From contig JAOBAU010000432.1 of assembly GCA_025463165.1 (NCBI GenBank), positions 1 to 35,765 on the forward strand: DNA of 35,765 bases. Reading direction: 5' to 3'. The position numbers were made by a program, and so were the translations under genes. Below, in pieces: positions 3,049 to 33,178 of this stretch (positions are counted from its first letter, which is position 1; the number at the start of each line of letters is the position of its first letter). The notes under the pieces are model-generated. The model was not told the DNA's origin. It ran no database searches and saw nothing but the letters and a program-made list of their open reading frames with translations. The stretch comes from Acidobacteriota bacterium (lineage in GTDB: Bacteria > Acidobacteriota > Thermoanaerobaculia > Gp7-AA8).

Positions 3049-3110
3049 GACATTACTCCGCGGTTGGCAAAGCAAGACTATTGCCGAGCCGCTACAATGC
3101 GCGAAACCCC
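3049..3110. promoter_or_regulatory. Divergent intergenic region between two CheB-domain genes
   Basis: This 62-bp gap separates the divergently transcribed CheB and CheB-CheR genes and must hold at least part of both promoters. A TACAAT box lies at 3093-3098 on the plus strand, but there is no good -35 element 17 bp upstream of it, and a start from it would leave a very short leader. The minus-strand GGAG that fixes the CheB start is also here. Confidence 0.35.
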
Positions 3111-8998: not shown

Positions 8999-10633
8999 GT
9001 GAATCGATTATTCCGAACTGCCTCCGTCACTTCCAGTGATCAAACACTCCGCACATTTACTCCGGCAGTCGCGGCCGTCGAACGCGAAGTTGCCGTTGCT
9101 TCGCTGCTGCTCGCACTGCTCAGCTTCGTGCGCGTGCTCTGCGTGTTTCTCTATCGGATCGATTCCGATGAGCCGCAACATCTGCACGTCGTGTGGGGAT
9201 GGGCGGCGGGACTTCGTCCTTATCGTGACGTTTTCGATAATCATCTGCCGCTGTTCCATTTCGTCACCGCGCCGCTGTTCCGGCTGCTGCCGCAATCGGC
9301 GCAGATTCTCACCGCCGCGCGGCTGGCGATGCTGCCGATCGGCTTCGCATCGATCGCGCTCACCGCGGTACTCGGCTGGCAGGTGGCGGGACGAAAAGGA
9401 TTCGCGTGGGCGGCGGTGCTCGCCAGCGCCTGTCCGCCGCTCGTGCTGAAGACGCTGGAGTTTCGCAACGACACGTTGTGGTGCGCACTGCTGCTCGCCG
9501 CGATGGCGTTGCTGCTCGCGCGGCAATCGCGCTGGCGAAGCTTCGCGATCGGCGTGCTCTCCGCGCTCGCGCTGCTGACGTCGGTGAAGACGGTCGTGAT
9601 CGCGCTCGCGGTGCTGCTCGCGCTGGCGACGGAACGTCTGCGTCGCGGCGGCGTGGTGAAGCGGCGCGAAGTTGCCTTGTTTGCGTGCGCGATCGCCGGC
9701 GGTTTGCTGCCGCTCGTCATCACCACGATCCTGCTCGCGCGCTCCGGCATCCTCGGCGATTTCGTGTACGGTGCGTTTGGCTACAACTTCCTCTTTCGCG
9801 TGCACGCGGCGCGGCGAATCGCCGGACTCGTTTTGCTGCCGCTGCTCGCGCTGTTCATCGGGCGCAACGCGTATCGGCTCGACGATCGCTCGCGTCCATT
9901 TCGCCTCGTCGCGCTGACGATCGCTTACTTCGTGATCGTTCTCCTTTGTCTATGGCCGGTGATTACGACGCGCGACTTCCTGCCGATCTTTCCGCTGCTG
10001 GCGGTCATCGCCGCGGTCTGGTTCACGGAGTCACGCTCGCGTTTCGAGTTGCTGCCGGCGGTCGCGATCGCCGGCATGCTGGCGACGTTGTTTCACGGCG
10101 ATCTGTGGCGTCCGCGATCCGCCGAACCGCAGCGCATCATCGCCGACGTGCTTCGACTGACGTCGCCGACCGATTACGTGATGGACCTGAAAGGCGAAAC
10201 GATTTTCCGCCGCCGTCCGGTGCCGATCATTCTCGAAGTCGTCGGCCGCGATCTGCTGCGCCGCGGAGTCATCAAAGACACGATTGCCGCGGAAATGATC
10301 CGTACGCGCACGTGCGTCGCCGTCCGCGATCTCGGTGCGTTCCCGCCCAACGCGTCCCGATTTCTGCGCGAGAACTTCGTTGACGCGGGAAGCGTTCGCG
10401 TCTGCGGAAAGCATCTCTCGCGCGTCGCCGCCGGAACCGACGTGACGTTCACGCTCGCGATCCCCGCGCGCTACGCGCTGCGCAGTCGTGAGCCGGCAAA
10501 CGGCGCGATGCTCGATGGTCGTCCGTTCACGGAGCCGCGATGGCTCGACGCGGGCACGCATACGTTCCGCGTCGCCGGCGATGCGGATGACGTCACGATC
10601 ATCTGGGAGAAGGCGCTGGCGCTCGATTCATGA
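8999..10633 (+). CDS. GT-C fold membrane glycosyltransferase (GT39/ArnT-like)
   Basis: A multi-pass membrane protein of ~544 residues. The first membrane helix (VAVASLLLALLSFVRVLCVF) is followed by an acidic loop (YRIDSDEPQH) and a DVFDNHLPLFHF stretch. This is the arrangement of GT-C transferases, where the first external loop carries the catalytic acidic residue and the donor is a polyprenyl-phosphate sugar. About ten hydrophobic segments follow, then a soluble C-terminal domain of ~160 residues. The track start is a TTG at 8870 inside the inverted-repeat region. No in-frame ATG precedes the first helix, so I chose the GTG at 8999; a TTG at 8981 is also possible. The acceptor is unknown. 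It converges with the sigma-54 activator with a 6-bp overlap. Confidence 0.78.
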   Translation: MNRLFRTASVTSSDQTLRTFTPAVAAVEREVAVASLLLALLSFVRVLCVFLYRIDSDEPQHLHVVWGWAAGLRPYRDVFDNHLPLFHFVTAPLFRLLPQSAQILTAARLAMLPIGFASIALTAVLGWQVAGRKGFAWAAVLASACPPLVLKTLEFRNDTLWCALLLAAMALLLARQSRWRSFAIGVLSALALLTSVKTVVIALAVLLALATERLRRGGVVKRREVALFACAIAGGLLPLVITTILLARSGILGDFVYGAFGYNFLFRVHAARRIAGLVLLPLLALFIGRNAYRLDDRSRPFRLVALTIAYFVIVLLCLWPVITTRDFLPIFPLLAVIAAVWFTESRSRFELLPAVAIAGMLATLFHGDLWRPRSAEPQRIIADVLRLTSPTDYVMDLKGETIFRRRPVPIILEVVGRDLLRRGVIKDTIAAEMIRTRTCVAVRDLGAFPPNASRFLRENFVDAGSVRVCGKHLSRVAAGTDVTFTLAIPARYALRSREPANGAMLDGRPFTEPRWLDAGTHTFRVAGDADDVTIIWEKALALDS

Positions 10634-11992
10634 GCGGCGCGAGATGCCGAGCATCGACAGCTTTTCGTGCAGGTACGTGCGCTGGATGCCGAGGAGCTCG
10701 GCGGCGCGGCTGACGTTCCAGTTCGTGCGGCGCAGTGCGGTTTCGATGTACTCCTTTTCGCACTGCGTGCGGAACTCGCGCAGCGGCATCAGCTGCGCGG
10801 TCTCCGGAATGCGAACGAGTCCGGCTTCGGTGAGGCCGGTGCCGCTGGCGATCGACGTCGGCAATTGTTCGACGGTGATCGGATCGGTGCCGAATACCGA
10901 CAACCATTCCGCGACGTTGCGCAGCTCGCGGACGTTGCCCGGCCACTGAAACGCGGAGAGCACGTTCAGCACTGCCGGCTCGACCGACAACGCACCGCGC
11001 TGATTGCGTCCGGAAAAGTGCTGGAGAAATGCGGTGAAGAGGAGCGGGACGTCTTCCGGCCGTTCGCGCAATGGCGGGACGACGATCGGCACGGTCGAGA
11101 TTCGGAAGAAAAGATCTTCGCGAAATCGTCCGTCCTTCGTGAACTCTTCGAGCGATTGATGCGTGGCGGCGAGCACGCGCACGTTCACCGGGCGATCGGC
11201 CGCTTCGCCGACGCGGCGCACTTTGCCGTCTTCGAGCACGCGCAGCAGACGCGTTTGCAGCGCGAGATCCATGTCTCCGATCTCATCGAGGAACAGCGTT
11301 CCGCCATGCGCTTCTTCGAACAGTCCGCGCTTCGCGGTCTTCGCGTCGGTGAAGGCGCCGCGCGCGTGGCCGAACAGCTCATCTTCGATGAGGTTCTGCG
11401 GAATGGCGGCGCAGTTGAGGCGGATGAACGGCTGTCGCGCGCGGCGGCTCAGCCGATGAATCGCGCTCGCCACGAGCTCTTTGCCCGTTCCGCTTTCGCC
11501 GCGAATGAGGACGCGTGCGTCGGTCGGCGCCACTTTCGCGATGACACCGCGAATCGTTTCGAGCGCCTGCGACCTGCCGATCATCTGCTGCTCGCGCGAC
11601 CGGAGGTCGAGCAGCTGGCGTCGCAGCGACGCATCGTCGAGACAGTTGCGCACCGACTTCAGCAACCGTTCGCGGCTGAATGGTTTGTCGATGAAGTCAC
11701 GCACGCCGAGGCGGAGCGCTTCGACCGTTTCTGCCATCGACGCTTCGCCGGAGATGACGATCGACGGCGGCATCGCTTCGCCGACCATGCGAATCAGATC
11801 GATGCCGCTCATCCCTGGCAAACGGACGTCGACGAGCGCCATGTCGGGCTCGATCTCGTGCGGATTGCGGAGATGCGCGAGCGCTTCTTCGGCGCTGCGG
11901 AACGCGACGACGCCGTAGCCTTCCTCGCGCAGCCGGAGCGCGACGTTCGCGACGATCTTCTCGTCATCTTCAACAAGGAGGATCAGTTCCAT
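10628..11992 (-). CDS. NtrC-type sigma-54 activator response regulator (REC-AAA+-Fis HTH) with GAFTDA loop
   Basis: A 454-residue activator of sigma-54 RNA polymerase. It has a receiver domain (1-120) with Asp55 (ALVDVRLPG) and Lys103 (DKPF). The AAA+ domain (~137-370) has Walker A GESGTGKE (165-172), Walker B GGTLFLDEIGD and ELFGHARGAFTDA. A Fis-type HTH closes the protein (NWNVSRAAELLGIQRTYLHE). The sigma-54 contact loop reads GAFTDA (212-217) rather than the canonical GAFTGA. The gene overlaps the end of the upstream histidine kinase by 10 bp, so the two form a cognate two-component pair. They are co-transcribed with an Omp85-like protein, suggesting envelope sensing. Targets are unknown. 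Confidence 0.95.
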   Translation of the reverse strand: MELILLVEDDEKIVANVALRLREEGYGVVAFRSAEEALAHLRNPHEIEPDMALVDVRLPGMSGIDLIRMVGEAMPPSIVISGEASMAETVEALRLGVRDFIDKPFSRERLLKSVRNCLDDASLRRQLLDLRSREQQMIGRSQALETIRGVIAKVAPTDARVLIRGESGTGKELVASAIHRLSRRARQPFIRLNCAAIPQNLIEDELFGHARGAFTDAKTAKRGLFEEAHGGTLFLDEIGDMDLALQTRLLRVLEDGKVRRVGEAADRPVNVRVLAATHQSLEEFTKDGRFREDLFFRISTVPIVVPPLRERPEDVPLLFTAFLQHFSGRNQRGALSVEPAVLNVLSAFQWPGNVRELRNVAEWLSVFGTDPITVEQLPTSIASGTGLTEAGLVRIPETAQLMPLREFRTQCEKEYIETALRRTNWNVSRAAELLGIQRTYLHEKLSMLGISRRS

Positions 11993-13029
11993 CGCCGGTC
12001 CGTTTCTCCGAACATCATCACGAACGTCGCACCGGCGCCGGCGGTGCGCAGCAGCTTCAGATCGCCGCCGTGATCGAGCATGATCTTGCGCGAGATCGCG
12101 AGCCCGAGACCTTCGTCCGCGGGGCGTGTCGTCACGTAAGGATCGAAGATGCGCTCGCTCAGCGCGGCCGGCACGCCGCGTCCGTCATCGCGCGCGCGAA
12201 CTTCGATTGATGAACTGCCATCGATCGTGAACGTCATCGACTGCGCGCCGGCGGCGGCGCTGTTCGAGCAGAGATTGACGAGCACCTGGCGCAGCATGTC
12301 GCGATCGATGGCCGCGCTGCGGTCGCGTCCTTCCACGGCCAGCGTCATGCCGGGCCAGGCACCGGCGAACGTCGTGCAGAATTCGTCGAGCATGGCGCGC
12401 AGCGATTCGTTGCGGAGCACCGGCTTCCCAAGTCCGCCGAGCGATGCGAAGCCGCGCGTGAATTTCGCCAGCCGCTCCAGCTCTTCCGCGACGCTTTGAT
12501 GCGCGGCCGCGATCTCGCTCGATGTCGCGGACGCGCGAACGAGATCGCCGCTCCGCTCCAGTTCGAGACGCGCCGCGGTCAGCGGTCCTTTGATCTCGTG
12601 CGCCTGACGACGCGCCGTTTCCTGCAGCGCCGCGATCCGTTCGGCGAATGTGCGGCGCTCGTACAACTCCGCTCGCCGCTGGCGCAGCAGAATGACGAAT
12701 GCGGCGGCCGCGGATGCGAGCGCGAAGACGAGCACGAGGATCGTTTCGAAGCGCCGCACCATCCGCTCTTCTCCGCGGCGCAGGATCTCGATACGTGACA
12801 GGAGATGCTGCGCGTTGTCGAAGCGGCGCCGGTACTCGACGCTGTTCGCGGGATCGATTCGGCGCAGCGCGAGTTGATCGCTGCGATGCTGTTCGAGTGC
12901 TTCGCGCAGTTCCGGGCGCAGCGCGAGACCGAGCCAGACGCCGGAGATCTGATGGATGGCCAGCCAGAAGAGCAGCGTCGCCGCGGCGACGGCGAACGTC
13001 GAGAAGACGATCGGACGAAACGCTCTCAT
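11983..13029 (-). CDS. Membrane sensor histidine kinase (NtrB/NtrY-like), partner of the sigma-54 activator
   Basis: A 348-residue kinase with two membrane helices (~8-26 and ~96-115) enclosing a periplasmic segment of ~70 residues. A short linker leads to the phospho-acceptor helix with His144 (RRQAHEIKGPLTAAR). The ATPase domain follows (LVNLCSNSAAAG, RDDGRGVP, GLGLAISRKIMLDHGG). The HEIKGPL box is of the NtrB/NtrY kind that pairs with sigma-54 activators. The track start at 13269 lies inside the neighbouring gene. The ATG at 13029 overlaps the upstream TGA as ATGA, implying translational coupling. The small periplasmic loop may read something delivered by the two exported products of the same operon; that is inference. 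Confidence 0.92.
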   Translation of the reverse strand: MRAFRPIVFSTFAVAAATLLFWLAIHQISGVWLGLALRPELREALEQHRSDQLALRRIDPANSVEYRRRFDNAQHLLSRIEILRRGEERMVRRFETILVLVFALASAAAAFVILLRQRRAELYERRTFAERIAALQETARRQAHEIKGPLTAARLELERSGDLVRASATSSEIAAAHQSVAEELERLAKFTRGFASLGGLGKPVLRNESLRAMLDEFCTTFAGAWPGMTLAVEGRDRSAAIDRDMLRQVLVNLCSNSAAAGAQSMTFTIDGSSSIEVRARDDGRGVPAALSERIFDPYVTTRPADEGLGLAISRKIMLDHGGDLKLLRTAGAGATFVMMFGETDRRWN

Positions 13030-13601
13030 CGGAGCGGATGCTCCACGGTCCATTGCCACGACATGATCGGCCGCGCGGCGATCGTCGTCCCGATCAGCGC
13101 GTCGACGAGACCGCTCGTGCGCGCCGAGGTGCCGACGCCGCCCGCTTTCGAGACCCACTGCCGCGTTTCTTTTTCTTCGTCGGCGGAGAAGGGGAGGACG
13201 AGCAGATCGAGATCGAACTTCGCCGGCGACGTCGTCGTGGCGAAGAGACGCAGCGGCGTGCGCCACCACGTTTCGAGCGCGGCGCGCGACGGAAGCCGCT
13301 GGCGCTCGCCCGTTTTTCCCGCTTCGACGCGGCGGACCAGCCAGACTTCATCCCACAGGTCGTAACGAATCTCGAGCCGCGCCACGATCACCGCGGATTG
13401 CTGCCGCTGATGGATTTGCACGACGAACGTCGTCGTCAATCCGCTGCCGAGCTGTCTCGTGACTTTCGCGTCGCTGAGAATCGTCAGCGGCAATTCGGCG
13501 GCGATGATGTTTCCTGCCTGTGTGGTGAACGACGGTCGCGATTCCGCTGCCGCGAACGTTGCGGCGAGTGACAGCAGGACGACCGCTGCCGCGCGAATCA
13601 C
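13026..13601 (-). CDS. Secreted DUF4390-like protein
   Basis: A 191-residue protein with a signal peptide (AAAVVLLSLAATFAAAES; cleavage probably after AAA). The mature domain is beta-rich (LGSGLTTTFVVQIH, ARLEIRYDLWDEVWLVRR, LPFSADEEKETRQWV). Size, export and position beside an NtrY-like kinase recall DUF4390 proteins, but the family match is tentative. The real start is a GTG at 13601, overlapping the stop of the Omp85-like gene as GTGA; a second GTG lies one codon upstream. Its own stop overlaps the kinase ATG as ATGA. It is therefore locked between an outer-membrane protein and a sensor kinase and is a candidate periplasmic link between them. Confidence 0.8.
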   Translation of the reverse strand: MIRAAAVVLLSLAATFAAAESRPSFTTQAGNIIAAELPLTILSDAKVTRQLGSGLTTTFVVQIHQRQQSAVIVARLEIRYDLWDEVWLVRRVEAGKTGERQRLPSRAALETWWRTPLRLFATTTSPAKFDLDLLVLPFSADEEKETRQWVSKAGGVGTSARTSGLVDALIGTTIAARPIMSWQWTVEHPLR

Positions 13602-19515: not shown

Positions 19516-20466
19516 TCAGGAGCTGTGGCGGTCGAGCCAGTCCAGGATTTCGCGAATGCTTCCCGTCGCCAGCGCGATGCACGTATCGGCGGCGCCGTAG
19601 TAGAGATTCAGCGTGTCGCCGTCGGGTCCGATCGTGTAGCCGCAGGGGAACGTGACGTTCGCGACGTCGCCTTTCGTTTCGTACGGCTCTTCCGGTCCGA
19701 AGATCCATTCGTCGCCGCGCAGCAGCAGTTCGGCGGGATCGTTGCGATCGAAGAGTGCGACGCCGAGCCGATAGAGACTGCCGGCGGCATTGGAACGAAC
19801 GCCGTGATAGAGCATCAGCCAGCCACGCTCCGTTTCGATGAGCGGAGGGGAGAGTCCGACTTTGTTCGCGTCCCACCAGCCGCCGCGTCTGGCCTGCAGC
19901 ATCATCCGGTGACCGCCCCAGCTGCGCAGGTCGGGCGAATAGGAGATCCAGACGTGCGCGCCCGAATCGGCGATCGGACGATGAACGAGCGCGTACATTC
20001 CGTCGATGCGGCGCGGCAGCAGCGCGGCATCCTTGTCGTCCGGCTGCATGACCAGACCGCAGCGCTCGAACGTAATGAAATCTTCAGTCAATGCGAGCGA
20101 GACTCCCGGCCCGCCTTTGCCGAATGCGGTGTATGCAATCGCGTAGCGGCCGAGGTCGGGTACGAATGTAATGCGCGGATCTTCCACACCCCAGAGCTCT
20201 TCGGGATGATTCTCGGGATCGGAAGAAAGCGTCGGCTGCCGATCGATGATCCAGCCGCCGATTCCGTCCTTCGATCGCGCGGCGCAGAGATGCGAGAGCC
20301 CGGTACGATCTTCGACTCTGCACAGCAGCAGCGTCGTCCCGTCGGGAAGCGTCGTCGCGCCGGCGTTGAAGACCGTATGTACGGGATAAGGCCAGTCGGA
20401 GGCGCTGAGAATCGGATTGCTGCCGACGCGGCGGAACAGAGTTTCGTACTGCGTTGCTGCGGTCAT
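19516..20466 (-). CDS. GH130 family glycoside phosphorylase/hydrolase
   Basis: A 316-residue five-bladed propeller enzyme of the GH130 type, a family acting on beta-mannosides by phosphorolysis or hydrolysis. Supporting motifs are FNAGATTLPDGTTLLLCRVE, the hallmark GVEDPR (93-98, with the catalytic Asp), AYTAFGKGGPGVSLA, SPPLIETERGWLMLYHG and FPCG near the end. There is no signal peptide, so it is cytoplasmic. Its ATG overlaps the stop of the GT4-toroid gene as ATGA, so the two are translated together and probably share one glycan. Substrate and the phosphorylase/hydrolase choice cannot be decided here. Confidence 0.9.
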   Translation of the reverse strand: MTAATQYETLFRRVGSNPILSASDWPYPVHTVFNAGATTLPDGTTLLLCRVEDRTGLSHLCAARSKDGIGGWIIDRQPTLSSDPENHPEELWGVEDPRITFVPDLGRYAIAYTAFGKGGPGVSLALTEDFITFERCGLVMQPDDKDAALLPRRIDGMYALVHRPIADSGAHVWISYSPDLRSWGGHRMMLQARRGGWWDANKVGLSPPLIETERGWLMLYHGVRSNAAGSLYRLGVALFDRNDPAELLLRGDEWIFGPEEPYETKGDVANVTFPCGYTIGPDGDTLNLYYGAADTCIALATGSIREILDWLDRHSS

Positions 20467-22766
20467 TGAGCTCCAGCTGCGACCAGTTCCCTGACCGGCA
20501 TCGCAATCTGCGTCGCGTTACGGCGAACTTCATTGGCGCGCATGTCCATCAGCGCAAGGAGAAACGAGAGGGTCGATTCAGCGCCTTCATTGTCGTTCAT
20601 TCGGTCGGCATGCAATGCGTCGCGACAACCGCCCGAAAGCGGGTCGTACAGTGACTGCTGTAATTGATTTTGTCCAAGAAACCAGGTGAATGCGCGGCGC
20701 GCGTGCTCGGCCCAGCGATGATCGCCGGTGGCACGAAACGCGTGCATGCAGGCAGAGACGGTGGCGCACGCGTCGACCGGCTGCTGATCGAAGATCGCGG
20801 CGGTCATTCCGCGCTCGAAGAACCCATTCGTTCCGATCGGCGCGAAATATCCGTCGGGCGTCTTCTGAATCGTCATCAGCCATTCGAGCGAACGAAGACC
20901 GGTCTCAGTCATCCCGTCGTCGCCGAGCCACGCGCCGGCCGACACGAGTGCCTGCGGCAGCCGCGCGTTGCAATACGTCACGCTGTTCTCGAACCACGGC
21001 CAGTCGGGTCGATCGCTGCGGCGAAACAGCGCCAGCAGGCGATCGGCAATTGCCCTGCCGGAGGCCTGCACTTCGCGGTCGCCTTCGAAAGCGCGCAGAT
21101 ATTGTTCGATTCCGAGCAGTGCAAACGCCCACGCGCGCGGGCTCGTAAAGCCGGCCACGGCCGGCAGCGCATCGTGAAACAGCGCTCCGGCGAGACTGTA
21201 GCGGCCGGGATCGGCCGAGAATCCGACCACCGTTCCGAGTGCCCAGAGCGATCGTCCGTGACTGTCTTCGGAGCCCTGCTCTTCCGTCCAGTTGCGCGAG
21301 TGCGACATGAAGTTTCGAAACCGGCCGGCGGAACGATTGAACGCGTGACTGACGAACGCCAGATAGCGCGAGGCGAGCGTGCGAACCAGTTTCGGATCTT
21401 CGGTCCCGGCGTCTTCAATGAGCGTCATCAGCATCAGCGCGCGCGCGTTGTCGTCGACGCAATAGCCTTCGTCGTAACGCGGAATGTTATAGGTCGCGTG
21501 CTGCAGGATTCCGGTGTCATCGGTCATGACGACGACGTGATCGAGATTGATGAGCGGCAGGTCCGCGGGGCGCATGGCCAGCGTGCTGGCGCGGAACGCC
21601 GTCTGTCTGCGCAGTGAATGTGCCGAGCGGGCGTGCTCGAACGTCTGCAGATACGACTCGGCGACCGCCGGCCAGAGCATCGCTTCGCCATGTGCGGCGG
21701 CGCGTTGCCGCAGTGCGAGACGTTTCGCGGGATCATCGAGCAGGCCGGTGATCTCGGTGGCGATTGCTTCCGCGTCTTTCCAGGGGACGAGAATTCCGCG
21801 TCCTTCAGCGAGCAGTTCCCGCGCATAGCGGTACGGCGTCGAGATCACCGCTTTTCCGGCGCCGAGTGCGTACGCGAGCGTGCCGGAAGTGATCTGCTCG
21901 GGATTCAAATAGGGGGTGATGTAGATGTCGGCCGCGGCGAGAAATTCGGAGAGCTCGGCCTGACTGACGAATCGATTGTGAAAGATCACGCTGCCGTCGA
22001 CGCCGAGTCGTTTGGCGCGTTCCTCGAGCATGAGGCGATAGGTCTCGCCATGGCGCTCGATGATGTGCGGATGGGTGGCGCCGAGGACGATGTAAACGGC
22101 GTCGGGGTGGTGCAGGAGGATTGAGGGGAGCGCGTCGATGACGTGCTCGATTCCTTTGTCAGGCGAGAGCAGGCCGAACGTGAGAATCAGCGGACGATCC
22201 TCGACGCCGAGGCGGCTCTTGCTGCCGGCGAATGGAACCTTCGGGATGCCGTGAGGGATCACGTCGATCTTCTCTCTGTCGACGCCGTGTACTTCGTGGA
22301 GCAGATCCGCGCCGCCGGCGGTCATGACGACGAGACGATCGGACAGCGCCGTCAGTTCGTCCATGACTCGGCGCTGCTGCGAATTCGGGGAGGCAAGGAT
22401 CGTGTGCAGTGTCGTAACGATCGGCATGCGAAGCTCGCGCAGCAGCGTCAGCACATGAGCGCCTGCTTTTCCGCCGAAAATCCCGTATTCGTGCTGAACC
22501 GAGATTACGTCGACCGCGTTGACGTTCAGGAAATCGGCGCCGCGCGTATAGGCGCCGGTGTCATTGTCGGCCAGCTCGAAACGGACGCGGCCGGGATAAG
22601 CGTACTGGTGGCGGCCGTCGTTCATCGCCAGCACGAAACAATCGAGCTCGGGATCGGCGGCGGCGATTGCGTCGCTCAGGTCGGTGGTAAAGGTCGCGAT
22701 GCCGCAGCGGCGCGGCAGGTGATTGCCGAGCATTGCCACTCGGCGAATACTTCTTTCATCAGGCAT
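20463..22766 (-). CDS. GT4 glycosyltransferase fused to a C-terminal alpha-toroid-like domain
   Basis: A 767-residue cytoplasmic protein. Residues ~8-385 are a GT-B fold GT4 transferase (RRCGIATFTTDLSDAI, ISVQHEYGIFGG, VIPHGIP, LTFGLLSPDKGIEHVIDALP, NPEQITSGTLAYALGAGKAV). The usual EX7E motif is altered, since only the first Glu (NPEQ) is clear. Residues ~400-745 form an all-helical domain with repeated signatures (YCVDDNARALML, SEDSHGRSLWALG, VDACATVSACMHAF), read as a six-hairpin toroid typical of carbohydrate-active domains. The start ATG has CGGAG four bases upstream. It is coupled to GH130, so the pair may build and trim, or recycle, a mannose-type glycan; this is inference. Confidence 0.9.
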   Translation of the reverse strand: MPDERSIRRVAMLGNHLPRRCGIATFTTDLSDAIAAADPELDCFVLAMNDGRHQYAYPGRVRFELADNDTGAYTRGADFLNVNAVDVISVQHEYGIFGGKAGAHVLTLLRELRMPIVTTLHTILASPNSQQRRVMDELTALSDRLVVMTAGGADLLHEVHGVDREKIDVIPHGIPKVPFAGSKSRLGVEDRPLILTFGLLSPDKGIEHVIDALPSILLHHPDAVYIVLGATHPHIIERHGETYRLMLEERAKRLGVDGSVIFHNRFVSQAELSEFLAAADIYITPYLNPEQITSGTLAYALGAGKAVISTPYRYARELLAEGRGILVPWKDAEAIATEITGLLDDPAKRLALRQRAAAHGEAMLWPAVAESYLQTFEHARSAHSLRRQTAFRASTLAMRPADLPLINLDHVVVMTDDTGILQHATYNIPRYDEGYCVDDNARALMLMTLIEDAGTEDPKLVRTLASRYLAFVSHAFNRSAGRFRNFMSHSRNWTEEQGSEDSHGRSLWALGTVVGFSADPGRYSLAGALFHDALPAVAGFTSPRAWAFALLGIEQYLRAFEGDREVQASGRAIADRLLALFRRSDRPDWPWFENSVTYCNARLPQALVSAGAWLGDDGMTETGLRSLEWLMTIQKTPDGYFAPIGTNGFFERGMTAAIFDQQPVDACATVSACMHAFRATGDHRWAEHARRAFTWFLGQNQLQQSLYDPLSGGCRDALHADRMNDNEGAESTLSFLLALMDMRANEVRRNATQIAMPVRELVAAGAQ

Positions 22767-22781: not shown

Positions 22782-23009
22782 TTAGAAGCGTTTTTTCAGA
22801 ATGGCCGAAGCCCGGCGCTCGAGCTCATCGCAGCAGGTCGTCCACATCGTGTCGTACCAGCCGTTTTCGCGGCCGTGAATCGACACCGCCACGACCGGCC
22901 CGCCGTGTTCGGCGCAGCGCAATTGCGTCGTGTCGTGCAGCCTTTCGCGCAGGCGATTGCGCAATTGTTCGCGCAGGGTATGCTCACGGCCTTCGATTGT
23001 GATTCTCAC
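22782..23009 (-). CDS. Small conserved-looking protein of unknown function (75 residues)
   Basis: A 75-residue soluble protein starting at GTG and overlapping the stop of the upstream gene as GTGA. It has an amphipathic N-terminal helix (REHTLREQLRNRLRERL), a central CAEHGGPVVAVSIHGRENG segment and a Trp/Cys-rich patch (WYDTMWTTCCDEL). Three Cys and two His residues could bind a metal. I do not recognise the family. It ends 15 bp before the GT4 start, so it belongs to the same transcript. Confidence 0.72.
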   Translation of the reverse strand: MRITIEGREHTLREQLRNRLRERLHDTTQLRCAEHGGPVVAVSIHGRENGWYDTMWTTCCDELERRASAILKKRF

Positions 23010-23467
23010 GTCGCGGCCACGACCTGCGGGATGAGCGTGGTGCCGTCCGGCGAGCTGACCGGTGGCTCCTTTTCGCGCCGCGGCGGCAGCATCATGTGCC
23101 AGCGCGCAACGAATTCATTGGGAATGATGAATTCGAACGTCTGACTATGACAACGAAGCCGTAATACCTTTCCGCCGGCGACGACGGTGCCGGTGGCCAG
23201 CTCATTGTCGTATTCGATTTCCTGGACCCATTGCAGATCGAGCGACGCCTGCATGTCGGAATTCTCATAATAGAAAGCCGACTGCGTCACAGCCAGTGCG
23301 ACGTCGAGATGCCGGTTTCCGTCGACGAATTCACCGCGGCTGACCATGCGTGACGTGGCGCGGCGACGCTCATTGAAGGCTGCAATACGATCGGTCGCGA
23401 ACCGGCGATAGAGATTTCTTCCGAGAAATACCACTGCAACCAATGCCACCAGCGACAGTACGATCAT
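23006..23467 (-). CDS. Membrane-anchored hypothetical protein (153 residues)
   Basis: One N-terminal membrane helix (VLSLVALVAVVFLGRNLY) is followed by a basic stretch and a soluble beta-rich domain (VDGNRHLDVALAVTQSAFYY, LQWVQEIEYDNE, GKVLRLRCHSQTFEFIIP). The domain is reminiscent of a small PH-like sandwich, but no family is claimed. The positive charges after the helix suggest the domain stays in the cytoplasm. It is the first gene of the minus-strand run leading to the GT4 and GH130 genes and overlaps the 75-residue gene by 4 bp (GTGA). Confidence 0.78.
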   Translation of the reverse strand: MIVLSLVALVAVVFLGRNLYRRFATDRIAAFNERRRATSRMVSRGEFVDGNRHLDVALAVTQSAFYYENSDMQASLDLQWVQEIEYDNELATGTVVAGGKVLRLRCHSQTFEFIIPNEFVARWHMMLPPRREKEPPVSSPDGTTLIPQVVAAT

Positions 23468-24993: not shown

Positions 24994-26028
24994 ATGATGT
25001 CCGCAGTGCGTCGAACTGTCCTTCCGGCCGTCCTACTCATGATGCTCGCCGCATGCGGCGGCGATGGCGACAGCGATCAGTTGTCGGCGGCGCGCCACCA
25101 CCTTCGTTCGGCGCCGTGCGGTAATTCTCCCGCCGTCACCGGCGTGGCCGGAGTCAACACCGATCCGCATCAGGTTTTCCTCGGCGACTGGATCATCGTC
25201 TCGGTCTGTCACCTCGATCAGGTCCTGAAAGCGGCCGACGCCGCGCAGGCGCCGATCACGCTCTTCATTGAAGGAATCGACAGCGGCAACGAGCCGGTCG
25301 GCGTCGACGTCGAATCGGGAACGATCACGTTCGTGCTCGATCGCACGCCGCAGAATCGAAAACTCTGGACGCCGTTTCTCTACAATCCGTTGTTCGATCC
25401 CGAAGTGGCGATGCACCTCAGCGTCGGAATTCGCGGCGAGCGTCCGTTGCCGCGCGCGCCCGGCGCGAACCTCACCGTACGGCTGAAGAAAATCTATGTC
25501 GACTGGACGACGTGGGTCTGGCTCGCGCTGCTGACGCTCGTCACGGCCGTCATCGCGTTGTCCGCGGCGTATACCGACATGCTGCGCGAAGGTCCCGACG
25601 TCGACGGCGTCCGTCAGCCTTACAGCCTCGGCCGCACGCAAATGGCCTGGTGGTTTTTCCTCATCGTGCTGAGTTACAGCTTCATCTGGCTCGTCACCGG
25701 CGATCGCGACACGATCCAGCCGTCGCTCCTCGGATTAATGGGAATCAGCGCCGCCACCGCGCTCGCGGCGGCCGCCATTGCAAAGACCGCCGCGCGTGCG
25801 TCGCACGGCTTATGGCGCGATCTCGTGGCCGACGAACGCGGTTCCGTGGTCGCGCTCGATCGATTGCAGATCGTCGTCTGGACCGTCGTCCTGAGCGGCG
25901 TGTTTCTGACGTCGGTGATCTGGGATCTGACGATGCCGGAATTCAACGCCACGCTGCTCGCGCTGATGGGCATCAGCTCCGGCACGTACATCGGCTTCAA
26001 GCTGCCGGCGAAAAATCAACCTGAATAG
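24994..26028 (+). CDS. Multi-pass lipoprotein/membrane protein with internal duplication, unrecognised
   Basis: A 344-residue protein starting with a lipoprotein signal (LLMMLAACGG; lipid-accepting Cys21). Residues ~40-168 are a beta-rich exported domain with further Cys residues (SAPCGNSP, VSVCHLDQ). Five hydrophobic segments follow. Two ~44-residue units align without gaps: RTQMAWW...LLGLMGIS at 214-257 and RLQIVVW...LLALMGIS at 290-333, each with 35 residues from the Arg to the Met of the LMGIS motif. The ATG at 24994 is chosen (24997 is equivalent); the track start lies within the desaturase. I do not recognise the family. It follows the desaturase directly and converges with the RsbRD_N kinase with a 13-bp overlap. 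Confidence 0.82.
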   Translation: MMSAVRRTVLPAVLLMMLAACGGDGDSDQLSAARHHLRSAPCGNSPAVTGVAGVNTDPHQVFLGDWIIVSVCHLDQVLKAADAAQAPITLFIEGIDSGNEPVGVDVESGTITFVLDRTPQNRKLWTPFLYNPLFDPEVAMHLSVGIRGERPLPRAPGANLTVRLKKIYVDWTTWVWLALLTLVTAVIALSAAYTDMLREGPDVDGVRQPYSLGRTQMAWWFFLIVLSYSFIWLVTGDRDTIQPSLLGLMGISAATALAAAAIAKTAARASHGLWRDLVADERGSVVALDRLQIVVWTVVLSGVFLTSVIWDLTMPEFNATLLALMGISSGTYIGFKLPAKNQPE

Positions 26029-27332
26029 TTGCGCGGCAGGATTACGCGAAACGTCGTTCCCTGTCCCGGCTGCGTCGCCAGTTCCAGTCCGGCGTCGAGC
26101 AGCTCGCACAATCGTTTGACGATCGTCAGGCCGACGCCTTCGCCCGGCTGCTGATTTTCCGGCAGTTGCGCTGAAGCGGAAGGGAGCGTCGCCGCCGGCA
26201 CGATGTCGCGCCGCCGATCGGTGCTCGCTTCACGCGCGTCATTGGCGACCTCGGTGGCGTTGTGGATCTCCTGCGCAAGCGGTGCCGCCGGATTGTCGTC
26301 GATGCCGGGGCCGGTATCCTGGACAGAAAATGTCCAGCGGTCGGTACCGCGCGTCTCGTCGATTCCCCACGTGACGGAAACGCCGCCGTGCGTCGTGTAC
26401 TTGATCGCATTCAGCAGGAGGTTTTGCAGGATGCGCCGGATCTTCGCTTTGTCGCCTTCGACCGCCAGCTCGCTCGGGCCATCCATCTTCAGAAACAGAC
26501 CTCTCTCGGCAGCGGTCCCTTTCGACGCGTGACAGAAATCGCGCAGCAGCAGCGCGGCATCGAACGTCGAAAGCTCGCGCTGTTCGTGGCCGGCTTCGAG
26601 ACGCGCGAGGCTCAGCAGATCGTTCAGCATTTCGTGCAGCGACGAAACGCTGCTGCTGAGAATCTCGCCCACTTCGCGGCGATCGGGATCCGACATCGGG
26701 ATGCCGGTATCGCGCAGCAGCGTCGTCGCTCCCTTCACCACGGTTACGCTGCCGCGCAGATCGTGCGCGGCGGCGCGCCACGCTTCCGCGCGCGACTGCT
26801 CGATCGAGTGCAACGCGGAAAGCGCCTGCTCGAGATCGTTGACATGACCGGCCGATTCCGCCTGGTGCAGTCGCCAGTACTGCGTCGCACTTTCGGTTAC
26901 ACCGTCAGCACAAAGCTCCGCCCACGCGCGGCGGGCGGTCCGCATGACGCCGGCTTGCAGTTCCGGGTGGCTGACCGCGTAACGTTCCAGCTCATCGGCG
27001 ACACTCAGCTGCAGATGTCCCCATTCGCGAATCAGCTCGCGCAATTGATAACCCTGTTGCCAGCGCTGCAGACCGTGCTCGCAGACTCGCGCCGTTCGAT
27101 TGAGGTCGGCGGCCGGATCGCGATCGTCAGGCCATTCGCGAATGGTGTGCGCCAGACAATCGAGCACGGCGGGGATGTGATCGTTGAACTGCGCGCGCGA
27201 CAGCGACGACGCGATGCTCCGCTCGGCCGTCTGCTCTCCCGCGTTTCGCCAGGCCGCGAGAATCGCCTGGCGCCGCGCCAGCAGAGCGTCGGCAAGCTCG
27301 TTCAGTTGCGAGATGTCGACGACCGTGCTCAG
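26016..27332 (-). CDS. RsbRD_N-type sensor histidine kinase, apparent CTG start
   Basis: About 438 residues. The N-terminal ~165 residues resemble the RsbR N-terminal (RsbRD_N) domain (LADALLARRQAILAAWR, WQQGYQLRELIREWGHL). A dimerisation helix follows with His190 (AAAHDLRGSVTVV) and an ATPase domain (QNLLLNAIKYTTHGG, DTGPGIDD, GEGVGLTIVKRL). About 60 residues rich in Ala/Asp/Arg separate the DTGPGI and GEGVGL boxes, an unusually long ATP lid. No in-frame ATG exists near the start. The track uses a GTG (27377) lacking a ribosome site, whereas a CTG at 27332 overlaps the upstream TGA as CTGA with AGGAGG seven bases before it. I prefer CTG. It is the last gene of the CheB-CheR kinase cassette. 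Confidence 0.87.
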   Translation of the reverse strand: MSTVVDISQLNELADALLARRQAILAAWRNAGEQTAERSIASSLSRAQFNDHIPAVLDCLAHTIREWPDDRDPAADLNRTARVCEHGLQRWQQGYQLRELIREWGHLQLSVADELERYAVSHPELQAGVMRTARRAWAELCADGVTESATQYWRLHQAESAGHVNDLEQALSALHSIEQSRAEAWRAAAHDLRGSVTVVKGATTLLRDTGIPMSDPDRREVGEILSSSVSSLHEMLNDLLSLARLEAGHEQRELSTFDAALLLRDFCHASKGTAAERGLFLKMDGPSELAVEGDKAKIRRILQNLLLNAIKYTTHGGVSVTWGIDETRGTDRWTFSVQDTGPGIDDNPAAPLAQEIHNATEVANDAREASTDRRRDIVPAATLPSASAQLPENQQPGEGVGLTIVKRLCELLDAGLELATQPGQGTTFRVILPRNYSG

Positions 27333-27589
27333 AAACGTACCTCCTGGCTTGCCGCGCGCACGTCGCACGCTTCGCACAGCCAGCCGTGAGAGGTGAGCTT
27401 GAACGGCGCTTCGTTCTCGTCGCGAAAGAGCGTGCGTGTTTCATGACACCAGTCGCAGCGGACGACGTGCGGATTTCCAAATGTCGGATTCGCACGAAGA
27501 ATGTCGGTGGCCGCTTGTTTCTCGCCGTCGACCAGATCATCACTGCGAAGCATCTTTCCTGCGGTTGTTCGAACGGCTTGTCTGGTCAC
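27329..27589 (-). CDS. Small double-CXXC (zinc-ribbon-like) protein between two kinases
   Basis: An 86-residue protein with VVRCDWCHETRTLF and HGWLCEACDVRA, two CXXC knuckles ~30 residues apart, fitting one zinc ribbon. The N-terminal ~40 residues are polar and helical. The start is GTG at 27589 with GGAG five bases upstream; it overlaps the stop of the large kinase as GTGA. Its own stop overlaps the CTG start of the next kinase. No family recognised. Being locked between two kinases, it may be an adaptor or a redox or metal-sensing part of the pathway; that is speculation. Confidence 0.82.
   Translation of the reverse strand: MTRQAVRTTAGKMLRSDDLVDGEKQAATDILRANPTFGNPHVVRCDWCHETRTLFRDENEAPFKLTSHGWLCEACDVRAASQEVRF
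27340..27345 (-). promoter_or_regulatory. Consensus ribosome site pointing to a CTG start
   Basis: AGGAGG (minus strand) is seven bases upstream of the CTG at 27332 and sits inside the end of the upstream reading frame. No ATG, GTG or TTG lies in frame at a usable distance downstream of it. It decides the start call of the RsbRD_N kinase. Confidence 0.65.
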
Positions 27590-30500
27590 GAAGTCTCCTT
27601 TTGCTGATGCGGATCCCGAAGCGGCAGCGTGATGCTGAACGTCGATCCCTGGCCGGGGCCGGCACTTTCTGCGCGCGCCGTACCGCCATGAAGTTTCATG
27701 ATCTGCGCAACGATCGAGAGTCCGATCCCGAGACCGGGCATGTGACCGGGCTCGACGGTTCCCTGCCGATAAAGCTCGAAGACGTGCGGGACGAAGTTCG
27801 CGTGGATTCCGATTCCCGTATCGATAACCGAGAGCCGTGCATCGTTGTTCTCGTTCTCCACGCGAACGTCGATCGAGCCTCCCGCGGAGGTGAACTTGAT
27901 CGCATTGCTGAGCAGATTCCAGACCACCTGGAGCAACCGAACCGGATCGCCGCGCACCGGCGCGGGATCGAGTGACGGCAGCAGCCGGATCGGAATGCCG
28001 AGATCGCTTGCACTGAGGGCGGTAATGTCGAGCGCGGAACGGACGATCGACATCAAGTCGATCTCTTCGAGCTGCACGCTGAGCTTCTGCTCGCGGATGC
28101 GGGTGACGTCGAGGAGGTCCTCGACGAACATCCGCAGCAGGTTGGCGCTCTCATCGACCCGCATCAACGCCTCGGCGTTGATCTGCGGATTGATTTTCGC
28201 GAGCTGCAGCCAGCCGAGGATCGACGTCAGCGGCGTGCGCAGTTCGTGAGCGACGGTGCCGAGGAAGGCGTCCTTGTAGCGGTTTGCACTCTGCGCCTCG
28301 CGGAACAGCATGGCCGTATCGATCGCAACCGCGGCGCGTTGCGACAACTCTTCGGCCAGTTTCAGATCGACCGGTCCGTAGCGGCGGCGCGATGAAGAGA
28401 ACGTCGTCGTCCCGAGGACTTTTTCGCGAACGATCAGCGGCACGCTGATCAATGAGCGCACTCCGAGCGCGCCGATCAGCTGCGTGATCTTCGCCTCCGG
28501 CGGGAGACCGCTGAGTTGCGCCTCGGCGATGTCGTTGAGCAGCACCGACGTCCGCAGCCGCAACGCCTGCGGCGCACCGGGTGCGTGTTCCGGCTCGTTG
28601 AACGCCGCTTCCTGGAACTGCTGCGCGAGATCGCGCAGGACCGGATTCGCGTGCGAGACGGTGAGGTGGCGGATCGAGCCATCTTCGTTGACGAGATCGA
28701 CCGAGCACCAGTCGGCGAACGCCGCCGTCGAGAGTTGCGCGAGGGAGCCGAGGGTTGTTTCGTAGTCGAGCGATGCCGCCAGCAACGCGCTGGCCTGCGA
28801 CAACATGGTCGCGGCGCGCGTTGCTTCTTCGGCGCGCAGCACACTCCGCTTGAGTGCATTGATGTCGAGCACGGCGACGATGGCGCCGTCGATTTTTCCT
28901 TCGCTCGTTCGATATGCGCGGATGCGCAACAGCCGCCAGTCGCCGCTGTTGTCCTGCACCTCGACGTCGGCAGCGGTCGATGTTTCGATCACCGCGCCGA
29001 CGAGCTTTTCGAGCTGCCATACATCGAGCGTCGACTTCACGTCGGCCAGCGGCCGTCCGCCGGCGTCGGGCGGAAGGTTGAGCAGCAGTCCGGCGGTGAC
29101 GTTGAATCGCCGCACCGTCAGGTCGATGCCGACGAAGAGGATCGGGATCTCGACGGCGCCGAGCAGATTCTCAATGTCGTCGTTCATCCGCACCAGCGCG
29201 GTGTTGCGGAGGCGCAACTCATCGTTCAGCGTGCTGAGCTCTTCGTTCGAAGACTGCAGTTCTTCCTTCGCGGTCTCGAGCTCCTCGTTCGTGCTGCGCA
29301 GCTCTTCGTCGCTCGACTGCGCTTCTTCCGCGGCCGCCGCGGCTTCGTCGGCGAGCCGCTCGCGATCGTCGATCGCGGCCGAGAGCGCCTCTCGCAGACT
29401 GTCGCTTTCCGATCGATCGGCGGCCTCCTGCTCGTTTCGTTTTGAGGGCGCCGGGATGCGGTGAAAGATGATCCACGCGCGGTCGTGAGCCTGCGACGCG
29501 TTGCCATACGGGATCACTTCGAAGCTGATGCTGTGCCGATCGTCGCCGTCGATGACGAGGATGTCTTCGCCCGCGACGCTGATCTGTTCGCGGAAGGCGC
29601 GGCGCACTGCCGGCCGAAGCACGGCAAGAACTTCGTGATGCCGGATCAGGCCGAAGAGATTGAATGACGCTTCTCCCGCCTCCAGCGAAATGAACGGCGC
29701 GACGTCACCGCGAATGCGGGTGATCTCCATCTGTTCATTGATGAGCAGACCGCACGGCGCAAGCCGGGCGGCGAGGAACGCATCGTCTTCGTCCCGCGCG
29801 TTTCCCGCCGTGCGAGGGACGGCCCGCACCGCCGGCGCCGCACGGACGATCTGTGGTGAATGCGGCGCGACGTCGAAGATCTGCAGCGCGCCAGGCAGCG
29901 GCCGTCTGCGATAGATCAGCGGATTCATCGATACGGCGGTGAGCTGATTCGTGACGCCGCGGAGATTCTCGGATCCGCCGAGCATCAGAAATCCGGTCGG
30001 TGCGACCGCGTACTCGAGCAGCGCCACCGCTTTCTTCTGCAGCTCCGGATTGAAGTAGATCAGCACGTTGCAGCAGGTCAGCAGGTCGATCCGCGAATAC
30101 GGCGGATCGCGCGTGACGTCATGCGCGGCAAACACGCAGAGTTCGCGCACCGCCTTCGCGATCTTGTAGCCGCCAGGCGAGACCGTGAAGAATTTCGCGA
30201 GCCGTTCCGGTGAGACGTCGCTCACCGCATCCTCCGAATAGAACGCGGCGCGTGCCTTCGTGAGCGACTTCTCGTTGATGTCGGTTCCGTAGATCGAGAT
30301 TCGCGGCGCATCGGAGCCGTCGAGGAACTCGAGCAGCGTGATGGCGAGCGAGTAGACCTCTTCGCCCGTCGAGCAGCCGGCGACCCAGATGCGGATGCCT
30401 CCTTCGACGTTGCGGTCTTCCAGGATCGCCGGGAAGACGACGGTCTTGAGCGCTTCGAACCGTTCGGGCTCGCGGAAGAACGACGTCACGCCGATCAGCA

Positions 30501-31341
30501 GATCCTGGTAAAGCGTTTCGAGCGCGGTCCTGTCTTTTCGCAGCGCGGACGCGTAGTCGCGCAGACTGTCGTGGTTGCCGAGGACGACACGGCGGAGGAT
30601 GCGCCGCTCGACGCTGCCACGTTTGAAGTGATTGAAGTCGACCGGGTGATGTTCGCGAAGCAGATCGAGGATGCCGTCGAAGGCAGCGCCGGACGGCCGG
30701 TCGGTGCCGGAACGATCGCGGCCGGCGACGGACGCGAGGCGTTCGGCGATGCCCGCCGGCGGCAATATGAAGTCGGCCGCGGAGGCCGCTGCGCGCGGCA
30801 TGACCGCGAACTTCGCACTTTCGGTGTCCTGCGCGAACGTGATTCCGCCGGCGTCGCGGATGAGCTTCAGTCCCGCGGCACCGTCGGCGTCGTTGCCGGA
30901 GAGCACGATGCCGATGGCGTCATTCTTCCGGTCGAGTGCGAGTGAGGTGAAGAACGTGTCGAGCGGCCGATGCGGCACCTTCGGCCTGCGCGGTGCGAGC
31001 CGCAGAATGTCGTCGTGAATCGTCATCTCGGTATCGGGCGGAATCACGTAGACGTGATCGGCCTCGATCAGCATCTCGTCGATCACTTCGTGCACCGGCA
31101 TCGCGGTGGCGCCGGAGAGGATTTCGACGAGCATGCTTTCGTGACGCGGATCGAGATGCTGGATGAGCACGAAGGCGAGTCCGCTGTGGGGCGGAATCGC
31201 GGAGACCAGCTCGATGAATGCGTCGAGCCCCCCGGCGGATGCACCAATGCCTGCGACGCGTACGGCTGTGCCGGACGGCATCGTGAGCGTTTTTCGCGCT
31301 GTGTTGCGAGCCTTCCGGGGAAGTGGAGCGCGCGGAGACAT
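27586..31341 (-). CDS. CheB-CheR-PAS-PAS-GAF sensor histidine kinase fusion
   Basis: A 1251-residue protein combining methylation enzymes with a kinase. CheB spans ~28-205 (Ser35 in GIGASAGG, His62 in LIQHLDP, Asp153 in SGNDADGAAG). CheR spans ~220-480 (ERRILRRV, TSFFREPERF, AGCSTGEEVYSLAI, GTDINEKSL). A PAS-like part lies at ~520-630 and a heptad coiled coil at ~660-725 (repeated NEEL). PAS follows at ~728-830 and GAF at ~845-1010. The kinase core has His1032 (VAHELRTPL), WNLLSNAIKF and DTGIGI, with no receiver. The ATG at 31341 has AAGGA eight bases upstream; the ATG at 31350 and the track start are less good. It leads a three-gene overlapping cassette. Methyl substrate unknown, with no MCP nearby. 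Confidence 0.93.
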   Translation of the reverse strand: MSPRAPLPRKARNTARKTLTMPSGTAVRVAGIGASAGGLDAFIELVSAIPPHSGLAFVLIQHLDPRHESMLVEILSGATAMPVHEVIDEMLIEADHVYVIPPDTEMTIHDDILRLAPRRPKVPHRPLDTFFTSLALDRKNDAIGIVLSGNDADGAAGLKLIRDAGGITFAQDTESAKFAVMPRAAASAADFILPPAGIAERLASVAGRDRSGTDRPSGAAFDGILDLLREHHPVDFNHFKRGSVERRILRRVVLGNHDSLRDYASALRKDRTALETLYQDLLIGVTSFFREPERFEALKTVVFPAILEDRNVEGGIRIWVAGCSTGEEVYSLAITLLEFLDGSDAPRISIYGTDINEKSLTKARAAFYSEDAVSDVSPERLAKFFTVSPGGYKIAKAVRELCVFAAHDVTRDPPYSRIDLLTCCNVLIYFNPELQKKAVALLEYAVAPTGFLMLGGSENLRGVTNQLTAVSMNPLIYRRRPLPGALQIFDVAPHSPQIVRAAPAVRAVPRTAGNARDEDDAFLAARLAPCGLLINEQMEITRIRGDVAPFISLEAGEASFNLFGLIRHHEVLAVLRPAVRRAFREQISVAGEDILVIDGDDRHSISFEVIPYGNASQAHDRAWIIFHRIPAPSKRNEQEAADRSESDSLREALSAAIDDRERLADEAAAAAEEAQSSDEELRSTNEELETAKEELQSSNEELSTLNDELRLRNTALVRMNDDIENLLGAVEIPILFVGIDLTVRRFNVTAGLLLNLPPDAGGRPLADVKSTLDVWQLEKLVGAVIETSTAADVEVQDNSGDWRLLRIRAYRTSEGKIDGAIVAVLDINALKRSVLRAEEATRAATMLSQASALLAASLDYETTLGSLAQLSTAAFADWCSVDLVNEDGSIRHLTVSHANPVLRDLAQQFQEAAFNEPEHAPGAPQALRLRTSVLLNDIAEAQLSGLPPEAKITQLIGALGVRSLISVPLIVREKVLGTTTFSSSRRRYGPVDLKLAEELSQRAAVAIDTAMLFREAQSANRYKDAFLGTVAHELRTPLTSILGWLQLAKINPQINAEALMRVDESANLLRMFVEDLLDVTRIREQKLSVQLEEIDLMSIVRSALDITALSASDLGIPIRLLPSLDPAPVRGDPVRLLQVVWNLLSNAIKFTSAGGSIDVRVENENNDARLSVIDTGIGIHANFVPHVFELYRQGTVEPGHMPGLGIGLSIVAQIMKLHGGTARAESAGPGQGSTFSITLPLRDPHQQKETS

Positions 31342-31468
31342 TCGGGCCATCCTTTCGAAATCGTCTGAGGATGGAGACAGTTGCGGAGCGCGCAAACGGA
31401 CCGTCGAAGTGGCGGCCCGGACGGTGCGCGCCTGTCGCGACCGGCTGGATCAGGCGTGTGACTGCTGA

Positions 31469-31539
31469 TTGAACGATTTCACTGTCGTCCGGTATTTCCA
31501 TTTCGGCAACGTTTGCGCAATGCGTTGCCAGATTGGCAG
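31469..31539 (+). promoter_or_regulatory. Candidate promoter and dyad operator upstream of XRE gene
   Basis: A possible promoter is TTGAAC (31469-31474), an 18-bp spacer, then TATTTC (31493-31498). Just downstream, GGCAACG (31505-31511) and CGTTGCC (31523-31529) are exact inverted arms. They enclose the smaller palindrome TTGCGCAA (31513-31520), almost on the same centre. A third dyad, TGCCA-GAT-TGGCA, follows at 31527-31539, touching the gene start. The placement over the start site fits self-repression by the XRE protein encoded next to it. The promoter boxes are weak; the dyads are plain in the sequence. Confidence 0.5.
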
Positions 31540-31544
31540 CCGGT

Positions 31545-31913
31545 ATGCAGGAGACGAAAATCGTGTACGGCCGTGTGCTCAGGCAACTCCGCGAATCCAG
31601 GGGACGCAGTCAGGCCGAAGTGGCGCGGAGCGTGGGGATTTCCCCGGCGCAACTGGCAAGACTCGAAGCGAATCAGCGCGGTCTTCACGTCGAGGATTTC
31701 GTCAGCATTGCAGAAGCGCTCGGAGAAAAACCGGGCAATTTGCTGCCGAATGACATCGGCGACATCGGCCATTTGAAGCCGCTCATCGACAGGCTGGCGT
31801 CCATCAAGCCTGAATTTCTCCCGCGTATCGCCGCGATCATCGAACACATCGTGCTGCTCTCGGAAGACGTGGCAGCAATCAACGCTCCGGCGCTGCGCAA
31901 AGTGCGCCGATAA
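31545..31913 (+). CDS. Cro/C1 (XRE) family HTH regulator
   Basis: A 122-residue protein with an N-terminal HTH (VLRQLRESRGRSQAEVARSV, ISPAQLARLEANQRGLHV) and a second half of predicted helices (LKPLIDRLASI, LPRIAAIIEHIVLLSED) probably for dimerisation. The ATG at 31545 is chosen; the track TTG (31533) lies inside a dyad. There is no clear ribosome site. It is divergent from the CheB-CheR kinase cassette and precedes the GlsB-type gene by 43 bp. It is a good candidate regulator of both sides through the upstream dyads, which is inference. Confidence 0.86.
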   Translation: MQETKIVYGRVLRQLRESRGRSQAEVARSVGISPAQLARLEANQRGLHVEDFVSIAEALGEKPGNLLPNDIGDIGHLKPLIDRLASIKPEFLPRIAAIIEHIVLLSEDVAAINAPALRKVRR

Positions 31914-32374: not shown

Positions 32375-33178
32375 ATGAAACAAACGCACGCGACGGTGTT
32401 GATCCTCTTCGTCCTTATCGCAATCCCTTTCAGTGCAGTCGCACAGGTTCCCCTCGGCACCGCGCAGAATTTCGGCGTGCTTGCGGGCTCGACCGCCACA
32501 AATACCGGCCCGACGGTCGTGACCGGCCAGGTGGGCGTTTCTCCAGGCTCGGCGGTCACCGGTTTTCCTCCCGGCGTGGTCGTCGGTGGTTCGATTCATT
32601 CGAACGATTCGGTGGCCATGCTGGCGCAGAACGACCTGACGATCGCATACAACGCCGCCGCGGGCTTGCCGTGCGGTACCGATTTGACCGGACAGAACCT
32701 CGGCGGCATGACTCTGACCCCGGGCGTCTACTGTTTTGCCAGCTCCGCGTTCCTCACCGGCGGGCTGACGCTGAACATGCAGGGCAATCCGAACGCACTT
32801 TTCGTCTTCCAGATCGGCAGCACGCTCACGACGGCCAGCGGCTCGACCGTGCTGCTGATCAACAATGCCGGCGTGTGTCCGACGAACGTGTTCTGGCAGG
32901 TCGGCAGTTCCGCGACGCTCGGCACCACCTCGTCGTTGCAGGGAGACATTCTGGCTCTGACCAGTATTACGCTGACGACCGGCGCCACAACGTCCGGCAG
33001 AACGCTGGCGCGCAACGGCGCGGTGACGCTCGACTCGAATACGGTCGGCTCGTGTTCTCTGGTGCCAGGCGGCGGTGCGCCGGCAGGCGGCCCGACGCTC
33101 GACTGGATCGGACTGGCGGCATTGACGATCCTGCTGGCCGTGGCCGGACTGTTCGTCATGAATCGATCGTCGATCTGA
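32375..33178 (+). CDS. Ice-binding-like (DUF3494) secreted protein with IPTL-type C-terminal sorting signal
   Basis: A 267-residue exported protein with signal peptide (VLILFVLIAIPFSAVAQ). It carries a DUF3494 ice-binding-type beta-solenoid domain (LGTAQNFGVLAGSTATNTGP, VVTGQVGVSPGSAVTGFPPG, MTLTPGVYCFASSAFLTGGL, FVFQIGSTLTTASGSTVLL, VFWQVGSSATLGTTSSLQGD). The domain occurs in many adhesins and need not bind ice. After a Gly/Pro linker the protein ends with PTLDWIGLAALTILLAVAGL and a short basic tail. This is the plan of the IPTLxxWG-CTERM sorting signal, with WIG in place of WG. The exosortase H gene starts 3 bp after its stop, so the substrate/enzyme relation is strongly implied. Confidence 0.9.
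   Translation: MKQTHATVLILFVLIAIPFSAVAQVPLGTAQNFGVLAGSTATNTGPTVVTGQVGVSPGSAVTGFPPGVVVGGSIHSNDSVAMLAQNDLTIAYNAAAGLPCGTDLTGQNLGGMTLTPGVYCFASSAFLTGGLTLNMQGNPNALFVFQIGSTLTTASGSTVLLINNAGVCPTNVFWQVGSSATLGTTSSLQGDILALTSITLTTGATTSGRTLARNGAVTLDSNTVGSCSLVPGGGAPAGGPTLDWIGLAALTILLAVAGLFVMNRSSI

Follow-up and report, generated by a model that had tools for sequence, protein, structure and literature searches.

The window analysed here, a stretch of 35,765 nucleotides, carries on its minus strand three consecutive genes, encoding a CheB-CheR sensor kinase, a small protein with two CxxC motifs and an RsbRD_N-like sensor histidine kinase (Table 1). The initial annotation had described these genes, the sizes of 1251 and 86 residues for the first two products and 4-bp overlaps at both junctions, and all of this is confirmed: the stop of the first kinase gene shares GTGA with the GTG start of the small gene, and the end of the small gene shares CTGA with the third gene. 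This second overlap exists because CTG is taken as the start of the RsbRD_N-like kinase gene, a likely choice from the sequence, with AGGAGG 7 nt upstream and no ATG, GTG or TTG close downstream. An alternative in-frame GTG at 27377 is open and would give a possible longer form, and six homologues of this kinase elsewhere start at their own ATG, further upstream than the window CTG. Overlaps of 4 bp are the most frequent type of gene overlap in bacteria, so the two junctions are ordinary ones, and the "translational locking" previously emphasized for this arrangement is a weak sign of special partnership.

Table 1. Positions of the genes and elements discussed in the text
Feature	Positions	Strand	Remarks
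CheB-CheR-coiled coil-PAS-GAF-HisKA-HATPase orphan kinase	31341-27586	-	1251 aa, ATG start; Pfam matches far over cut-offs
Glu-Glu heptad coil of this kinase	29176..29361	-	residues 661-722, STNEELETAKEELQSSNEELSTLN; candidate methyl-acceptor/signalling helix
CxxC-x23-CxxC protein	27589-27329	-	86 aa, GTG start; lineage-specific, zinc-ribbon-like
RsbRD_N-like sensor histidine kinase	27332-26016	-	438 aa from CTG; Pfam
Conserved leader, 5' UTR candidate	31346..31478	-	about 130 nt; CATCCT..AGGATG over ribosome-binding site
Conserved promoter	31470..31511	-	operator-like TTGCC-N5-GGAAA over -35
Second TGCC/GGCA-type near-palindrome	31489-31560	-	
Divergent XRE-type regulator	31533..31913	+	Pfam HTH_31/HTH_3; candidate operator reader
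Ice-binding-like protein (PF11999)	32375..33178	+	E 1.4e-61
Single-helix membrane protein	23006-23467	-	150 aa, no Pfam family; repeatedly near small gene or glycosyltransferase-GH130 pair
Glycosyltransferase and GH130 phosphorylase pair	19516..22766	-	mutual 4-bp overlap; orthologues coupled to small gene in G013 and G011
NtrC-type regulator	10628-11992		
Partner kinase of NtrC-type regulator	11983-13269		
Second CheB-CheR-PAS protein	3081-5684	+	no kinase
Lone CheB-domain protein	2014-3201	-	

The two kinases

In the first kinase Pfam recognizes CheB (E 5e-49), CheR (E 5e-50), PAS_10, GAF, HisKA and HATPase_c domains. Orthologues that are 68-75% identical were found in five other genomes of the same GTDB family, and the GASAGG and QH motifs of CheB and the AGCSTGEE and TSFFR motifs of CheR are present in all six proteins, while the DG motif of CheB was read directly in the window protein. 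By domain match and catalytic motifs, the chain contains a CheB methylesterase and a CheR methyltransferase. Its domain order, its intact-looking CheB and CheR motifs and its kinase H and N boxes are those of CheB-CheR fusions with PAS and histidine kinase domains, from which it stands out only by a recurring small downstream partner and a conserved leader. Genes for CheA, CheW or a receptor were found neither in the cassette nor among the scanned open reading frames of the window, so the locus does not represent a chemosensory pathway. The earlier statement that receptor, CheA and separate receiver are all missing holds for the cassette; concerning the receiver, however, it does not hold for the window, which also encodes an NtrC-type regulator with its partner kinase and two hybrid kinases with receivers. 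Elsewhere in the window, a second CheB-CheR-PAS gene is overlapped on the opposite strand by a gene for a lone CheB-domain protein.

Among the regions of the kinase scored in the six orthologues, the most conserved is a Glu-rich coil preceding the PAS domain, with 87% invariant columns, compared with 51-68% for the CheB, CheR, PAS, GAF and kinase domains. The same Glu-Glu heptad motif is found in the second CheB-CheR-PAS protein of the window, a paralogue. Glu-Glu pairs spaced seven residues apart resemble the methylation helices of receptors. In Bacillus cereus, where RsbK, RsbM and RsbY act in the stress response, RsbM is a methyltransferase whose target is the signalling helix of the sensor kinase RsbK, and this methylation restrains the response (PMC4574943). 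The conserved Glu-Glu heptads, together with this precedent, suggest that the window kinase may methylate itself on the coil, in cis. The two systems differ in that RsbM is a separate protein, whereas here methyltransferase and methylesterase lie within the kinase chain; moreover, neither a sigma-B module nor a PP2C regulator of the RsbY type was seen adjoining the window kinase. If the methylation idea is true, it would explain how CheB-CheR-kinase fusions can work in the absence of chemoreceptors, and the candidate self-methylated segment would be the very part of the protein that has changed least. Conservation of the coil could also reflect dimer signalling alone.

The domains previously assigned to both kinases are supported by Pfam, although for RsbRD_N (PF14361) the support is marginal: the N-terminal match of the third gene product (E 2.9e-4) scores 21.9 bits with hmmscan and 26.2 bits in the genome search, straddling the Pfam cut-off of 24.3. 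RsbRD_N stressosome proteins end in a STAS domain, which the third gene product lacks, having HisKA and HATPase_c domains (Pfam) there instead. Its AlphaFold model is poor (pLDDT 53). Relatives sharing 65-74% identity occur in five other genomes, where they are free-standing, and this is the normal state of the gene.

A lineage-specific small protein

The small protein has ten homologues of 84-86 residues, which can be aligned nearly without gaps and share 35 invariant positions, all four cysteines (n = 10) being among them. Compared with the window copy, pN is about 0.11-0.22 and pS 0.58-0.74 (pN/pS 0.16-0.34); since pN is far below pS, the gene is real and subject to purifying selection. The AlphaFold model, for which the alignment of homologues was used as input, has a pLDDT of 92.7 and shows a pair of helices at the N terminus and a core of five strands, on which the CxxC knuckles sit. 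Four invariant cysteines, two knuckles and a beta core are what is found in a zinc ribbon, as the initial annotation had proposed, and the protein probably binds zinc.

No known family could be assigned at a significant score. The protein matches no Pfam family over the cut-off and no NCBIfam family, there is no convincing match among PDB sequences, and a Foldseek search of PDB folds returned nothing significant, the best weak matches being zinc ribbons of the eS27 type (E 0.12, TM-scores <0.4). With these the model shares the two CxxC knuckles and a small beta-rich core, but it has in addition the N-terminal helix pair. Of the 18 genomes in one GTDB family, 10 encode the protein, as against none of 131 other genomes of the class, and a search of the phylum gave only partial matches, at E about 1e-3, in three genomes. 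We regard it as a new lineage-specific family, zinc-ribbon-like and under strong selection.

Promoter and leader of the CheB-CheR kinase

The promoter of the CheB-CheR kinase is conserved, with the operator-like TTGCC-N5-GGAAA site at the same distance in all six kinase promoters; the -10 element is TATRCT-like in most of them and weak in the window. In G003, G008, G007 and G010, relatives of the divergent XRE-type regulator are encoded close to the small gene or to the ice-binding gene, and the promoter may be under XRE control. In several genomes the second near-palindrome listed in Table 1 lies upstream of the operator-like site, in the interval that separates the kinase from the XRE gene.

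Downstream of the promoter, the leader, which the initial annotation had passed over, contains invariant blocks ending CATCCTCAGACG...GAAAGGATG ahead of the kinase start codon in six genomes. With a covariance model (R1) it was detected ahead of all six kinase orthologues, of the G003 ice-binding gene (E 6e-13; L026:19169-19297, minus strand) and of a PAS hybrid kinase (PAS-kinase-receiver) in G018, a genome of a sister family (E 3e-15; L066:6276-6406, minus strand). In a sample of 396 genomes from the phylum no other match at E <0.001 was obtained. One conserved leader thus stands before several sensor kinase genes and one ice-binding gene among acidobacteria of soil and permafrost. No Rfam family matched the window at the gathering threshold and the leader itself gave chance-level matches only, so a known riboswitch was rejected as its identity.

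Concerning the level at which the leader acts, 88-92% of cells pair, compared with 31-49% in slid controls, and compensatory pairs number 2-3, not clearly above shuffles. So small a number of compensatory changes does not establish an RNA structure, and the leader may act either as RNA or at the DNA level. A simple melting RNA thermometer is not supported, since at every temperature tried between 4 and 45 C the ribosome-binding site is predicted to be masked by pairing, its accessibility being <=0.25 with no opening on warming. It is quite unlikely, in our judgement, that the leader is an undescribed RNA switch in which CAUCCU:AGGAUG pairing masks the ribosome-binding site, controlling a stress kinase that methylates itself, together with the zinc-ribbon partner of this kinase and, in certain relatives, also ice-binding proteins; were it so, the same cue would be tied to sensing and to freeze protection.

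Gene neighbourhoods and their interpretation

The flanks of the small gene were read in all ten genomes that carry it, and the CheB-CheR kinase was found directly upstream in five, a count to be read with the fact that many of the compared genomes are draft MAGs, where an absent neighbour may be an assembly break. Kinase and small gene share a 4-bp overlap in the window, G007 and G010 and are separated by 43 bp in G003 and by 48 bp in G008. In G013 and G011, which represent two other genera and are 98-100% complete, the gene directly upstream encodes a GH130 protein, again with a 4-bp overlap and itself preceded by a glycosyltransferase (Pfam). The upstream neighbours in G001, G014 and G016 are other small genes, among them relatives or a fragment of the 150-residue membrane protein, whose gene also lies 5' of the glycosyltransferase-GH130 pair elsewhere. 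G016 has the CheB-CheR kinase on a different contig, while G013, G011, G001 and G014 have no orthologue of it at the cut-off used. Hence the small gene is present in 6/6 kinase-bearing genomes and adjacent to the kinase in five, and the kinase is found in none of the eight genomes of the GTDB family that lack the small gene (hypergeometric C(10,6)/C(18,6), about 0.011, uncorrected for phylogeny). These data support a meaningful association, and the pair recurs in related soil and permafrost acidobacteria. Two genera have two genomes each with the small gene, and in both genera both states are seen (G003 versus G013; G008 versus G016).

The RsbRD_N-like kinase behaves differently from the first one: only in the window genome does it lie 3' of the small gene. 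It adjoins the CheB-CheR kinase on the upstream side in G003, lies about 9 kb away in G011 and about 44 kb away in G010, is on a separate contig in G007 and was not found in G008, G013 and G016, while G004 (contigs L068 and L069) has two copies and no small protein. Only two of the ten genomes, the window genome and G003, have both kinases at a distance of less than 6 kb from the small gene. That the complete order should not be unique to one strain had been set as a test beforehand; it was seen in the window genome only, and the three-gene cassette is consequently strain-specific. A conserved cassette is rejected by the neighbours in the ten genomes, and the consistent neighbours expected for homologues of the small protein proved to be the CheB-CheR kinase in half of them and a 3' RsbRD_N-like kinase in one.

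Ice-binding genes lie close by in G003, G008 and G007, in the last of which the order is kinase, small gene, ice-binding gene. Besides the XRE regulator and the glycosyltransferase-GH130 pair, further neighbours encode a YeaQ-like membrane protein (Transgly_assoc) and a fatty acid desaturase, and G016 has an RRM protein gene on the upstream side of the small gene. From these neighbours, and from the titles of some related MAGs, the neighbourhood would seem to be a shuffling cold/stress island. The stress theme of the initial annotation fits these genes, but the three-part pathway built on it does not find support.

The reading that we prefer, with a probability of about 0.6, is that the cassette is a local arrangement in a reshuffling cold/stress neighbourhood, that its stable core is the kinase with the small gene, that the kinase works by methylation in cis, and that the small protein is an accessory. 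The core would be a two-gene unit, in which the zinc-ribbon-like protein comes after an orphan, cytosolic CheB-CheR-PAS-GAF kinase; it would be transcribed from the conserved promoter with its leader and may be controlled by cold or stress. The RsbRD_N-like kinase would have been joined to it downstream in the window lineage only. A cue would be sensed by the PAS and GAF domains, CheR and CheB would add and remove methyl groups on the Glu-Glu heptad coil and so set the gain of the kinase, by analogy with RsbM and RsbK, and phosphate would pass to a receiver whose gene lies elsewhere. The small protein would be a folded, metal-binding accessory co-produced with whichever stress gene precedes it; because it is made with varied stress genes, a general stress-island protein is likelier than a dedicated adaptor of two kinases.

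It is possible, if on the unlikely side, that the CheB-CheR kinase alone is the partner to which the small protein is dedicated, as a scaffold, say, or as a subunit sensing metal or redox state, and that the copies adjoining GH130 are displaced and act in trans. The adjacency in five of six kinase genomes and the lack of any kinase where the small gene is missing argue for this, and given the 6/6 co-occurrence the partnership could be closer than an accessory role implies; the conserved small gene nevertheless persists without a kinase orthologue in four genomes, two of them nearly complete. We consider it unlikely that the small protein is a zinc ribbon that binds nucleic acid and works on RNA or ribosomes during cold or stress, without being linked directly to the kinases: the fold, the eS27-type matches and the RRM gene of G016 point in this direction, but the structural matches, none of them significant, are leads only. 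Finally, a single dedicated pathway, with the zinc-ribbon protein as adaptor or metal/redox sensor between both kinases, as first proposed, is very improbable, since the perfect overlaps in the window and the adjoining kinases of G003 are outweighed by an order seen in one genome of ten, by an RsbRD_N-like kinase that is distant, on another contig or not found in six genomes and that G004 has although it lacks the small protein, and by the coupling of the small gene to GH130 in two. A tempting three-protein pathway thus gives way to pieces that can be tested separately. In G014 another Cys-rich small open reading frame (L034:7780-8062, plus strand) directly precedes the small gene.
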